A stretch of DNA of 64,000 nt from Desulfoglaeba alkanexedens ALDC. Lineage in GTDB: Bacteria > Desulfobacterota > Syntrophobacteria > Syntrophobacterales > DSM-9756. The stretch lies in contig NZ_CP040098.1 of the NCBI RefSeq assembly GCF_005377625.1, positions 2,779,279-2,843,278 on the forward strand. The letters are read 5' to 3'. Every line of letters begins with the position of its first letter. The stretch's first letter is position 1. The translations under genes and the position numbers were made by a program. Below, in pieces: positions 3,705-8,351 of this stretch. The notes under the pieces were generated by a model, which was given only the letters and a program-made list of their open reading frames with translations, made no database searches and was not told the DNA's origin.

Positions 3705-4925
3705 TCAAGAACCTACCGCCCGAACAGCCGGTTTCACCACGCGGTTCTGCAGCGCCTTCTTGATGCCGCGCAGCGCCTGCCGAGTGCGCATCTCGTTTTC
3801 AACCAACGCAAACCGCACGTATTCGTCTCCATATTCACCGAACCCCAGCCCCGGAGACACCGCCGTCTTACCTTCCTCGATGAGGAACTTGGAGAACTCC
3901 ACGGAGCCCATAGATCGGAAGGGTTCAGGAATTTTCGCCCATACGAACATGGTGCCTTTGGGCTTTTGCACGGGCCAGCCCATGCGGTTCAGGCCGTCCA
4001 CCAGGACGTCACGGCGCGACCTGTAGATGGAGACGATCTCGTCCACGCACGACTGGTCGCTGTTCAGGGCGATGATGGCCGCAATCTGGATGGGCTGGAA
4101 GATGCCGTAGTCCAGGTAACTCTTGAGCCGCGTCAGCGCGCCCACCATCTCCGGGTTTCCGACGCAGAATCCCACGCGCCATCCCGCCATGCTGTAGCTT
4201 TTGGACAGGGAAAAGAACTCGACGGCGATCTCTTTGGCTTCCGGCACCTGGAGGATACTGGGCGCCTGGTAGCCGTCGAAGGCGAGGTCCGCGTAGGCTA
4301 GGTCGTGGATCACCATCATCTGGTGTTCCCGGGCGAAATGGACCACCTTCTTGAAGAAGTCCAGGTCCACCACCGCGGTCGTCGGGTTGTGCGGATAGGA
4401 AATGATGAGCATCTTCGGGCGAGGCCATGTCTGCTTGGTGGCGATCTGGAGGTCTTCCAGAAAGTCCCGGTCCGGCCCGATGGGAATGGAACGCAGGTCG
4501 CCTCCCGCGATGATCACCGAGTAGGGATGAATGGGGTAGGTGGGATTGGGCGCAAACACCACGTCCCCCGGGCTGATGAGGGCCAGCACCAGGTGTGACA
4601 GGCCTTCCTTGGCTCCGATGGTGACCACGGCTTCCGTTTCCGGGTCGACGGTCACGCCGTAGCGGCGCGCGTACCAGTCGGCGATGGCGTGGCGCAGCTT
4701 GGTGATCCCCTTGGATGCCGAATAACGGTGGTTGGGCGACTTCTGGGCCGCCTCGATGAGCTTGTCCACGATGTGAGGCGGTGTGGGGATATCGGGATTG
4801 CCCATCCCGAGGTCGATGATGTCTTCGCCGGCCCGGCGCTTTTCCATCTTGAGGGCGTTCACTTGGGCGAAGACATACGGCGGCAGCCGCCGCATCCTGG
4901 AAAATTGCGAAATGTTAAGTGTCAT
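3705..4925 (-). CDS. alaC: Class I/II aminotransferase, AlaC-like
   Basis: A 406-residue PLP-dependent fold-type I aminotransferase. The PLP lysine lies in [29 protein letters not shown] at the N-terminus and [10 protein letters not shown] are typical of the alanine-synthesising AlaC/YfdZ group and related LL-diaminopimelate aminotransferases. An AGGAGG sits 8 bases before the ATG. It is the first gene of the leftward alaC-hom-apgM group, a common arrangement that links it to aspartate-family amino acid metabolism. The general class is certain; the amino-donor specificity (alanine versus aspartate or diaminopimelate) is inferred. Confidence 0.85.
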
Positions 4926-5065: not shown

Positions 5066-6052
5066 TCAGAAATGAAAGGAGAGCAGGCGTTGCAAACGTT
5101 TCATGGAGGCTTCGTGAAGGTCGCGGGCGGAACCGCCCGCTCGAATGGCGTCGTAGAGGGCCGCGTAAAGCGGTTCCACGTTCTCCGGTCGCTGGCAGAC
5201 GAGAAATCCGTCCACGGTGGCTTCCAGCCCCCAATGCGCCACATCCCGTAGGGGAATGCGACCGCTCACGGCCTTCATGTCCAGGTCGTCGCTGAACAGA
5301 ACGCCTTGGAACCCCAGGCGGTCTCTCAGGATTCCGCGGTTGACGGCCGCCGAGAGGGTACCGGGGCGTTCGGGGTCCCACGCCGGGTAGAGCGCGTGCG
5401 AGGTCATGACGGCGTGCACGCCGGCTGCGACAGCGTGCCGGAAGGGAAGGAGCTGGTCTTCAAGGCGCGCGGGGTCTTCGGTTTCGACCACCGGAAGGCG
5501 GTGGTGCGGGTCCAGGGCGGCCTTTCCCAGTCCCGGGAAATGCTTGGCCGTAGCTGAAACGCCCAGGCTCTGAAACGTCTCGATCCACAAGCGCCCCAGC
5601 CGGGCCACCCGTTCGGGGACGGCTCCAGGCGATCGTGAACCAAGGAAATGCCCTTCCGGATCGTCCACCACGTCCAGAACCGGGGCGAAGTTGATCTGAA
5701 TGCCCAGCGCCTTCAGTCGCTTCGCGACCGTCCTCGCCGAGTGGATCACGGCGTCCGAGCCGGAACGGGCCGTTTCCAGGGCGGAAGGAAGCCAAGGAAG
5801 CGCCGGGTGCAGGCGCTGGACGGCGCCGCCTTCTTCGTCTACGGCTATGAGCGTGCCGCGGCCCAGGGTTTCCCGGGAGTAGAGTTGAACGTCTTTCAGA
5901 AGTTCCCGAAGCTGCCCGGCGCTCGAAATGTTCCGGCGAAAGAGTACCAGGCCCCCGATCCGGAATTCCCGGATCACGGCCATGAGGTCCCGGCCGAACT
6001 CAGTTCCGTTGAATCCCACGAAGAGGTGGGCGCCGGCCGTTGATTTCACCAT
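5066..6052 (-). CDS. nagZ: Beta-N-acetylglucosaminidase, NagZ family (GH3)
   Basis: Cytosolic glycoside hydrolase family 3 enzyme that removes GlcNAc from muropeptides during peptidoglycan recycling. Of 328 residues, the recognisable parts are the N-terminal IAVDEEGGAVQRL, NFAPVLDV, the KHFPGLG loop (usually KHFPGHG) and LFSDDLDMKAV, which holds the nucleophile Asp. No signal peptide is seen, fitting the short cytosolic bacterial form. It faces away from a MurU-like and an AmgK-like gene, which act further down the same salvage route. The Leu in place of the second His of the active loop is the one notable deviation. Confidence 0.88.
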   Translation of the reverse strand: MVKSTAGAHLFVGFNGTEFGRDLMAVIREFRIGGLVLFRRNISSAGQLRELLKDVQLYSRETLGRGTLIAVDEEGGAVQRLHPALPWLPSALETARSGSDAVIHSARTVAKRLKALGIQINFAPVLDVVDDPEGHFLGSRSPGAVPERVARLGRLWIETFQSLGVSATAKHFPGLGKAALDPHHRLPVVETEDPARLEDQLLPFRHAVAAGVHAVMTSHALYPAWDPERPGTLSAAVNRGILRDRLGFQGVLFSDDLDMKAVSGRIPLRDVAHWGLEATVDGFLVCQRPENVEPLYAALYDAIRAGGSARDLHEASMKRLQRLLSFHF

Positions 6053-6258
6053 CGGGCTTTCGACCGTCCGTCTCGTGTTCTTCTTTCGAAGCCTTTTCTT
6101 TTCATTCGAACTTCTCAGATACCTTGCTGAAAAGCCGAAATCATGTCAAATGTCAATGGTCGAAACGATGCCTTCGACGAGAGGGATGCCGGTTTTCTGT
6201 TCGCCCCGGGTGCCGTGTCGAATCCGGATGCAGGAACCGTTGGAAGAAGAAGGCCCCC

Positions 6259-7254
6259 ATGCGCGCCATGATTCTCGCAGCCGGGCTCGGTACGCGGCTC
6301 CGGCCGCTCACCTGGGTCCGCCCCAAAGTGCTTCAGCCCCTCATGGGCATGACGCTCCTCGAATACTGGGCGGAGCGGCTCGCTTCGGCGGGCTTTGAGG
6401 CGGCCGTGGTGAACGCCCACCACCTGGCGGACCGCCTGGAAGCGTTCGTCCATGAACGTTCCTGGCCGCTTCCCCTTCATGTCATCCGGGAGCCGGTTCT
6501 GCTGGGGACGGGAGGCGGGCTCCGGAACGCCGTTTCGCTTTTGGGCGACGGGCCGGTACTCGCCGTAAACGGGGACACGGCCTGTGACGCGGCTCTTGCG
6601 CACCTTCGGCAAGTCCACGAAACGTCCGGCGCCAAGGCCACACTCCTTGTCCACGACTGTCCGCCGTTCAACAACGTGGCGGTGGATGCGGCCGGACGGG
6701 TGCGCGGGTTCGGCGAACGAGGGGAAGAGCTGTGTCGGAGGGATTCGGCGGTCCGCCTGCTGGCCTTCACCGGGATCCATGTGGTGGATTCGAAGGCGCT
6801 GGATTACTTCCCCCGAGGAAAGCCCGCAAGCATTCTGGAATTGTACAAGGATCTCATCGCTCGGGGAGACCCGCCGCGGGCCGTTTTTCGCAGTACTCTG
6901 ACGTGGCGGGAAACGGGGACGGTGGCCGCCTATTGGAGCCTCCATCGACATCTGGCGGCGGTAGACGACGGCGGCTTGGCGCCCCTTCCGAGCGGATCGC
7001 CCGTCCGAGTTCACCACAGTGCGGTCCTGGAAGGCGATGTCAGGCTGGAAGGCATGGTGGTTCTCGACCGCGCATGCCGCCTTCGCGGGCCCGTCCGGTT
7101 GAAGGACGTGATCGCCTGGAACGGCGTAGCGTTCGCTCCGGGAACGGATTTGGAAACCTGTATCGTGACCGATGGAGCAGCGGTTGCGGGGAGTCACCGG
7201 CATTGCATCCTGACGAAGGAAAAGGGGACCTTCCCGTTTCATCCCAACGACTGA
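6259..7254 (+). CDS. Nucleotidyltransferase, MurU-like NDP-sugar synthase
   Basis: A sugar-1-phosphate nucleotidyltransferase of about 331 residues. The start MRAMILAAGLGTRLRPLTW is the Rossmann-like nucleotide-binding signature; VLAVNGDTACD holds the metal-binding Asp. After the catalytic domain (about residues 1-230) there is a short run resembling a left-handed beta-helix (hexad-like VHHSAVLEGDVRLEG). The ATG at 6259 is chosen because homology begins exactly there and GAAGAAGG precedes it; a longer frame upstream lacks family similarity. It is translationally coupled to a kinase gene of the AmgK family, and nagZ is divergent. By analogy with Pseudomonas AmgK-MurU it may make UDP-MurNAc; GDP-mannose-type chemistry is the alternative. 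Confidence 0.75.
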   Translation: MRAMILAAGLGTRLRPLTWVRPKVLQPLMGMTLLEYWAERLASAGFEAAVVNAHHLADRLEAFVHERSWPLPLHVIREPVLLGTGGGLRNAVSLLGDGPVLAVNGDTACDAALAHLRQVHETSGAKATLLVHDCPPFNNVAVDAAGRVRGFGERGEELCRRDSAVRLLAFTGIHVVDSKALDYFPRGKPASILELYKDLIARGDPPRAVFRSTLTWRETGTVAAYWSLHRHLAAVDDGGLAPLPSGSPVRVHHSAVLEGDVRLEGMVVLDRACRLRGPVRLKDVIAWNGVAFAPGTDLETCIVTDGAAVAGSHRHCILTKEKGTFPFHPND

Positions 7255-8351
7255 AGGCGCTTCTTTCAACCCTTCGCCTCGAAGGGGCCGGATCGGCAAG
7301 CGCAGGGAGCGGCTGGTCGGTGGAACCGCTTCACGGCGACGGTTCGGACCGTGCCTTTTTCAGGCTCCGGGACGGCTTCCGGCGGGCGGTTCTGGTTGTG
7401 TCTCCACGCCGCAGCACGGACGAGATGGACGAATGCGACGCCTACGATCGGATCGGCCGGCACCTGGCGGCGAAAGGCCTGCCGGTTCCCCGGTTTTTCT
7501 GGTCCGATCCTCGCCGGGGCGTATTTGTCCTGCAAGACCTCGGAAACATCCACCTGCAGGACTTCGTCAACCGGTCGCGGACGCCGCGGCGCCTGGCCCG
7601 GGCGTACACGGATGCGGTCCGGCTGCTGCTTCGCCTGCACCGGCGGGGAGCGGAAGGCTTCCAAAGCGCCTTCTGCTTCGACACGGACCGCTACGATGCT
7701 CGTTTCATTTACCATCGTGAACTGGAATACTTCCGCCGAGCATTCCTGAACGAGACGCTGGGGTGCGCGGTGGTCGAAGAGGACCTGGGAGAAGATTTCC
7801 TGAAACTGGCGGCCCTGGCCGAGGCGCCCGGGCGCCGGTGGGTGATGCATCGGGATTTTCAGAGCCGGAACATCATGGTACACGGCGGAGCACTCTGGAT
7901 TATCGATTTTCAAGGCATGCGCTTCGGCCCGCCGGCTTACGACCTGGCAAGCCTCCTCATCGACCCCTACACGGCCGTTCCCGAAACGCTCCAGGAGATC
8001 CTCGTCCAACGCTATTGGAACGCCGCCCGGGGGTTCCTCGATGTACCGCGGAATGATTTCCTGCGGAGCTACCAAATGGTCCGCCTGTGCCGTAACCTGC
8101 AGATGCTCGGAGCCTTCGGGTTCTTGGGGACGACGAAAGGAAAGAGCGGGTTCCTTAATTATGTCCCGAGAGCCTGGAGGACACTTCGAAAGACCATTGA
8201 AGGCCCGTGCGGTGCCCTGTTTCCGAGCCTCAGGCGTTGGGTGCGCCTGGCGGACGAACGCATCGGGTCCGGCGCGTACCGGCAGAGGATCGAACCGGCG
8301 GGTTCCGTGACACGTGCGTCGGCGGGCGAGACTTCTGCAGCGGCCTCGTGA
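7203..8351 (+). CDS. Aminoglycoside-phosphotransferase-fold sugar kinase, AmgK-like
   Basis: APH-fold kinase of about 380 residues. It has the expected loops HRDFQSRNIMV (catalytic Asp) and IIDFQGMRFGPPAYDLASLL (metal Asp, with the typical APH continuation). No ATG fits the start of homology. A TTG at 7203 with GGGGAG nine bases upstream would overlap the preceding gene by about 50 bp and is the best guess, so the start is uncertain. Together with the upstream nucleotidyltransferase it matches the AmgK/MurU pair that phosphorylates and then activates MurNAc in cell-wall recycling. The basic C-terminal tail of about 60 residues has no clear similarity. Confidence 0.75.
   Translation: MHPDEGKGDLPVSSQRLKALLSTLRLEGAGSASAGSGWSVEPLHGDGSDRAFFRLRDGFRRAVLVVSPRRSTDEMDECDAYDRIGRHLAAKGLPVPRFFWSDPRRGVFVLQDLGNIHLQDFVNRSRTPRRLARAYTDAVRLLLRLHRRGAEGFQSAFCFDTDRYDARFIYHRELEYFRRAFLNETLGCAVVEEDLGEDFLKLAALAEAPGRRWVMHRDFQSRNIMVHGGALWIIDFQGMRFGPPAYDLASLLIDPYTAVPETLQEILVQRYWNAARGFLDVPRNDFLRSYQMVRLCRNLQMLGAFGFLGTTKGKSGFLNYVPRAWRTLRKTIEGPCGALFPSLRRWVRLADERIGSGAYRQRIEPAGSVTRASAGETSAAAS

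Follow-up and report, generated by a model that had tools for sequence, protein, structure and literature searches.

What does a gene pair that lies divergently from a nagZ-like gene in Desulfoglaeba alkanexedens ALDC act on, and if it recycles the N-acetylmuramic acid (MurNAc) of the cell wall, where would that MurNAc come from? The three genes lie at positions 5066 to 8351 of the window, by which we mean the whole 64,000-nucleotide stretch of the 3.37-Mb single-contig host genome analyzed here. All three are genuine coding genes, and the interval and the divergent nagZ arrangement of the original prediction are borne out. The nagZ-like gene (5066..6052, minus strand) encodes a 328-aa putative beta-N-acetylglucosaminidase of the NagZ-type GH3 family. 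A divergent intergenic region of 206 bp, as counted from the gene ends (6053..6258), separates it from the plus-strand gene of a 331-aa MurU-like sugar-1-phosphate nucleotidyltransferase (6259..7254), for which the list of open reading frames (ORFs) gives a start at 6040, yet conservation sets in at the ATG at 6259. The third gene encodes an AmgK-like sugar kinase of the APH family (7203..8351, plus strand); from the sequence, its start is ambiguous between TTG 7203, which overlaps the nucleotidyltransferase gene, and GTG 7320. As we argue below, this locus quite probably serves the recycling of peptidoglycan sugars, with MurNAc supplied by a route independent of AnmK and cytosolic NamZ as the most likely supplier.

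The kinase is present in 52 of 55 genomes of the class. Focusing on the best 80 of at least 558 loci that encode a relative (hereafter, the named loci), we found the nucleotidyltransferase beside the kinase in 47 and in one open frame with it in 27 (74 of 80 together); in four of the six loci lacking such a neighbor, no more than 220 bp separate the kinase from a contig end, which is not so in the other two (L193 and L198). According to positions and strands in the tables, NagZ lies divergently within 3 kb of the pair in 16 of the 48 class genomes that hold both. These are seven of eight genomes in the host's own family, f1, and nine of ten in f5, with the genes on different contigs in the two misses; 24 genomes of f2, five of f3, and one of f4 do not have NagZ next to the pair. 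The nucleotidyltransferase-kinase-NagZ arrangement exceeds chance.

Operons elsewhere in the phylum place relatives of the pair next to further recycling genes. Loci L202 and L205 carry NagZ, NamZ, nucleotidyltransferase, and kinase consecutively on one strand, and L204 has the same series with NagZ near the contig start. In L203, NamZ is followed by a fused nucleotidyltransferase-kinase of 686 aa, with an AmpG-family gene adjoining on the opposite strand (497 bits, cut-off 350); L206 resembles it by eye. L208 begins with an AmpD-NagZ fusion that scores over the cut-offs of both AmpD (226, cut-off 143) and NagZ (210.6, cut-off 207), followed by NamZ, a galactokinase-like GHMP protein, Mpl (412 bits, cut-off 388.7), nucleotidyltransferase, kinase, and an LdcA-like peptidase S66 (140 bits, cut-off 378). 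Because Mpl uses UDP-MurNAc, this cluster suggests UDP-MurNAc as the product. Given such a strong context of NagZ, NamZ, AmpG, Mpl, and LdcA operons, peptidoglycan recycling is much likelier than mannose or lipopolysaccharide (LPS) metabolism, and the original prediction, which had favored a peptidoglycan role over these two, is supported by the company of NagZ, NamZ, AmpG, AmpD, Mpl, and LdcA that relatives of the pair keep. These neighborhoods suggest that the pair acts as AmgK and MurU in the context of peptidoglycan recycling, with NagZ and NamZ as recurrent partners and AnmK as an occasional alternative.

L208 and further loci show several variations. The galactokinase-like protein of L208 (L208:5319-6950; 97 bits, cut-off 227), encoded between NamZ and Mpl, might phosphorylate the N-acetylglucosamine (GlcNAc) released by NagZ. 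At L182:9239-10936 and similar Desulfobacterales loci, by-eye inspection places an acyltransferase-like gene before and a dapB-like gene after the fused nucleotidyltransferase-kinase. In the AnmK-bearing genomes G092 and G127 (L215:3934-5106 and L216:6278-7447), an N-terminal domain precedes the MurU-like domain; that of L216, which has the kinase just upstream, resembles the C-terminal part of the RNase adapter RapZ (96 bits, cut-off 244), making a regulatory link to amino-sugar supply possible.

As to the source of MurNAc, the original prediction had AmgK and MurU re-using MurNAc, which would make UDP-MurNAc synthesis insensitive to fosfomycin, and had proposed a genomic search for MupP and AnmK. 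In our survey of 54 class genomes per recycling gene, a profile search that was positive in control genomes found AnmK in none, and the Pseudomonas route as known is thus not borne out. MurQ exceeded its cut-off in none of these genomes either; weak MurQ matches in 47 (at most 40 bits, cut-off 302) look like other sugar-isomerase domains and were rejected. NamZ was detected in 52 of the 54, NagZ-type GH3 proteins in 48, and AmpG in 40, of which 35 were over the cut-off, including that of the host genome (488 bits). Mpl was over the cut-off in six; the Mpl-like ligase of the host genome reaches 375 bits (cut-off 388.7), with the next Mur ligase at 184. By eye, the AmpG neighborhoods yielded no recognizable recycling gene. 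The class thus has an importer, NagZ, NamZ, and the pair, but neither AnmK as the known way in nor MurQ as the drain.

Global inspection of 247 genomes of the phylum (for which neither the Fisher p values nor the genome counts are corrected for shared ancestry) gave matches to the kinase profile in 168, to NamZ in 137, and to AnmK over its cut-off in 25. Kinase and NamZ occur together in 125 genomes, the kinase only in 43, NamZ only in 12, and neither in 67 (p 5e-19). The association of kinase and AnmK taken alone is not significant, AnmK being present in 13 of 168 genomes with the kinase and in 12 of 79 without it (p 0.11). None of the 134 genomes with a kinase match at E ≤1e-55 carries AnmK; these genomes span 56 families, and NamZ is found in 49 of those families. 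In all 13 genomes where kinase and AnmK coexist, the kinase match is weaker, as would in part be expected from a profile built from the class. Considering the short form of NamZ among the 168 kinase genomes, one has both this enzyme and AnmK, 118 short NamZ alone, 12 AnmK alone, and 37 neither (p 1.3e-6). Strong-kinase genomes without NamZ are concentrated in families f40, f59, f13, and f36.

The two genes are also physically linked. NamZ lies within 15 kb of the kinase in 19 of the 113 genomes in which both were placed, all 19 upstream on the same strand and spread over 16 families. In seven f2 genomes (G024, G027, G031, G032, G033, G036, and G049), NamZ is encoded on the strand of the kinase, 5 to 12.4 kb downstream of it. 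We rejected the idea that the AnmK-linked kinases form a clade distinct from the NamZ-linked ones: a tree built from 29 kinases puts the four rows linked to AnmK at two separate positions (2 changes), and those linked to NamZ require 3 changes. With both sorts of rows scattered in this way, more than one exchange of the entry enzyme may have taken place.

By its published activity, NamZ is an exo-muramidase that releases MurNAc from MurNAc-GlcNAc. The host protein belongs to GH171, with a NamZ_N domain of 262 bits at C1:458062-458664 in a 392-aa ORF (L207:9065-10243, minus strand), and scores 217 bits to the solved structure 4k05. A hydropathy look over 51 loci, as distinct from a signal-peptide predictor, indicated that in most of them the NamZ domain starts some 20 to 24 residues past a possible start, with no hydrophobic stretch ahead of it; among others, L063 (a long variant), L077, L092, L123, L130, L160, and L187 have a longer candidate leader. 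Long NamZ variants, in frames some 770 to 870 aa in length, are encoded at G092:C44, G110:C249, G199:C32, and G224:C732, among others, and several of the genomes with them also carry AnmK. The NagZ-like protein, which is the sole GH3 match in the host genome, has no signal peptide evident by eye.

Predicted structures speak to the chemistry of the pair. The model of the nucleotidyltransferase has a pLDDT (predicted local distance difference test) score of 95.8, and its catalytic domain superimposes on MurU 4y7v with Z 25.6 and a root mean square deviation (rmsd) of 1.7 over 215 aligned residues at 31% identity, the lowest rmsd and highest identity for this domain among the 50 matches listed. 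The three MurU structures 4y7t, 4y7u, and 4y7v, which we take to be from Pseudomonas putida, are 29-31% identical to the window domain at rmsd values of 1.7-2.6. A conserved signature and an NGD motif also make the domain one of the MurU type. The alignment with MurU 4y7v is confined to residues 1-235. In contrast to P. putida MurU, the window protein continues into a C-terminal tail of about 80 residues (residues 249-331, 7003..7251, plus strand), which forms short strands in the secondary structure of the predicted model and has its counterpart in full-length GDP-mannose pyrophosphorylase matches.

The kinase model (pLDDT 85) finds its best fold match in 3csv of Silicibacter, with E 5.8e-15 versus 2e-8 for the next; at E 1e-5, 3csv was also the only solved kinase relative from a profile search (145 bits). 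The motif HRDFQSRN (7848..7871, plus strand), presumably the catalytic loop, is nearly wholly invariant in an alignment of 18 relatives. The protein shares with AmgK an APH fold, an HxDxxxxN loop, and an adjoining nucleotidyltransferase gene. Together, the MurU 4y7v fit and the 3csv match support, at the level of predicted models, the AmgK- and MurU-like chemistry that had been proposed for the pair. The NagZ-like protein carries an Asp-His (D/H) loop, LDPHHRLP, and an SDDL motif that align with those of the solved NagZ-type enzymes 6k5j and 7vi6 and whose residues we assume to be catalytic.

Several observations weigh against a MurNAc-recycling assignment. None of the three proteins attains its NCBIfam equivalog cut-off. 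NagZ comes close, with 193 of 207 bits to model NF003740 and a PF00933 match over the cut-off (202 bits). The nucleotidyltransferase (PF00483, 73 bits) reaches 110 of 250 and 102 of 370 bits with the MurU models NF045761 and NF045697, marginally less than the 113 bits that it scores with a mannose-1-phosphate guanylyltransferase model (cut-off 440); at 331 aa with its tail, it is also longer than a minimal MurU (model length 226). Over its full length, its fold is nearest to GDP-mannose pyrophosphorylases (Z 32.3, rmsd 3.4, 315 aligned residues), with matches 7x8j, 7d73, and 8x7s spanning residues 1-327 and beyond. The kinase (PF01636, 90 bits) obtains 86 of 550 and 68 of 500 bits with the AmgK models NF045759 and NF045698. 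Beyond the scores, AmpG has no match in 14 of the 54 class genomes; canonical AmpD is over the cut-off in none of the 54, with weak, partial amidase matches in 36; 37 of the 168 kinase-bearing genomes of the phylum lack both short NamZ and AnmK; and NamZ, AmpG, and Mpl of the host genome are all encoded far from the window genes.

Since no equivalog cut-off is attained, the gene names rest on context, and we rejected naming the pair MurU and AmgK by model score. We equally rejected the missed cut-offs as an argument against function. Relatives encoded in AnmK-bearing genomes of the same phylum fall below them too, with 152 bits to MurU in L217 and 53-145 bits to AmgK in L216, L217, and L218, and the cut-offs are therefore not decisive here. 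Among the NCBIfam models, the kinase matches only those of AmgK strongly; the next one scores 22 bits.

We read every substrate, reaction direction, and cellular location from gene presence and absence, linkage, domain content, and predicted fold. On this basis, AmpG would bring wall fragments into the cell, where cytosolic NagZ would cleave off GlcNAc. The AmgK-like kinase would then phosphorylate free MurNAc at C1, and the MurU-like enzyme would couple the resulting MurNAc-1-phosphate with UTP to give UDP-MurNAc, to which Mpl could attach recycled peptide. As for the MurNAc itself, in this class it would most likely come from cytosolic NamZ and not from AnmK and MupP.

What NamZ would act on can be read in two ways. 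In the first, to which we give a little less than even weight, the shunt is fed by hydrolytic fragments, NagZ acting on GlcNAc-MurNAc and NamZ on MurNAc-GlcNAc, with anhydro-MurNAc left unrecycled or exiting the cell. No new NamZ chemistry is required here, and the AmpG of Tannerella forsythia is reported to import GlcNAc-MurNAc besides the anhydro form (PMC7670621). However, AmpG-type importers are common, and the amidase of L208, fused to NagZ and clustered with NamZ, is over the cut-off of AmpD, an anhydro-MurNAc amidase; both point to anhydro fragments. The bolder reading, which we regard as tentative and somewhat doubtful, is that cytosolic NamZ hydrolyzes the internal 1,6-anhydro bond of anhydro-MurNAc, yielding MurNAc in one step and without ATP, and that it thereby replaces AnmK and MupP across much of the phylum, ahead of the often-fused MurU-AmgK pair. 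It builds on AmpG and the AmpD-NagZ fusion, which suggest that anhydro fragments reach a cytosol where there is no AnmK.

An improbable alternative to MurNAc recycling is GlcNAc salvage, in which GlcNAc released by NagZ would be turned into GlcNAc-1-phosphate by the kinase and then into UDP-GlcNAc by the nucleotidyltransferase, MurNAc not being the main substrate. AmgK has been described as an anomeric kinase of both MurNAc and GlcNAc (PMC5371407), NagZ is next door, AnmK is missing from all 54 class genomes, and the longer nucleotidyltransferase is shaped like a GDP-mannose pyrophosphorylase; yet its catalytic domain is nearest to MurU, and the linked genes in other families encode Mpl, an enzyme that acts on UDP-MurNAc, and NamZ, which belongs to a muramidase family. 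An LPS or glycan sugar-nucleotide pathway (GDP-mannose, heptose) with NagZ adjacent by chance would fit the 113 versus 110 bits of the guanylyltransferase and MurU models and the full-length fold, but we consider it very improbable given NagZ adjacency in f1 and f5, which have only the class in common, the operons with NamZ, AmpG, Mpl, and LdcA, and an AmgK-type kinase as the constant partner.

Behind nagZ, the window encodes a class I aminotransferase (3705-4925) that matches alanine transaminase and LL-diaminopimelate aminotransferase models below the cut-off and holds the same place in L033, L034, L051, L137, and L143.

Compared with the AnmK-MupP-AmgK-MurU pathway of Pseudomonas, the locus has in common NagZ, AmpG, an AmgK-like kinase, and a MurU-like nucleotidyltransferase. 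It differs in that AnmK is replaced as the linked gene by NamZ (AnmK 0/54) and in that a longer nucleotidyltransferase gene precedes that of the kinase or, in relatives, forms a fusion with it. The kinase differs from AmgK in score, with 86 bits against a cut-off of 550, and has 3csv as its solved relative; the nucleotidyltransferase, as said, stays below the MurU cut-offs. Set against Tannerella forsythia, whose NamZ1 and NamZ2 reportedly serve MurNAc salvage, NamZ operons with the pair occur here in several families of the phylum to which the window belongs. As in the class, T. forsythia has AmpG, AmgK, and MurU without a predicted AnmK (PMC7670621); unlike the case made here, that species depends on outside MurNAc, and it has neither MurA nor MurB. 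Its growth is supported by GlcNAc-anhydro-MurNAc and poorly by anhydro-MurNAc, and the authors leave its anhydro-MurNAc strategy without AnmK to be explored (PMC7670621). Tannerella AmgK and MurU are also reported to allow wall labelling with 2-alkyne MurNAc (PMC13041923). Fumeaux and Bernhardt surveyed 1,773 taxa for the pathway, setting the BLAST E-value limit at 1e-26 (PMC5371409), and divergent forms like these may have been missed at that limit. In the titles and abstract beginnings returned by searches of one open-licence library, there was no NamZ operon with the pair and no fused MurU-AmgK.

The locus is a warning that annotation by equivalog cut-offs overlooks this version of the pathway. 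The NamZ operons offer a concrete, one-enzyme test of anhydro-MurNAc use without AnmK, and if the bolder reading of NamZ is true, such an enzyme could explain how Tannerella uses anhydro-MurNAc with no predicted AnmK. If peptidoglycan recycling by the pair is true, a direct shunt from MurNAc to UDP-MurNAc, independent of AnmK and MupP, would be widespread among the sulfate-reducing and syntrophic bacteria of this phylum.

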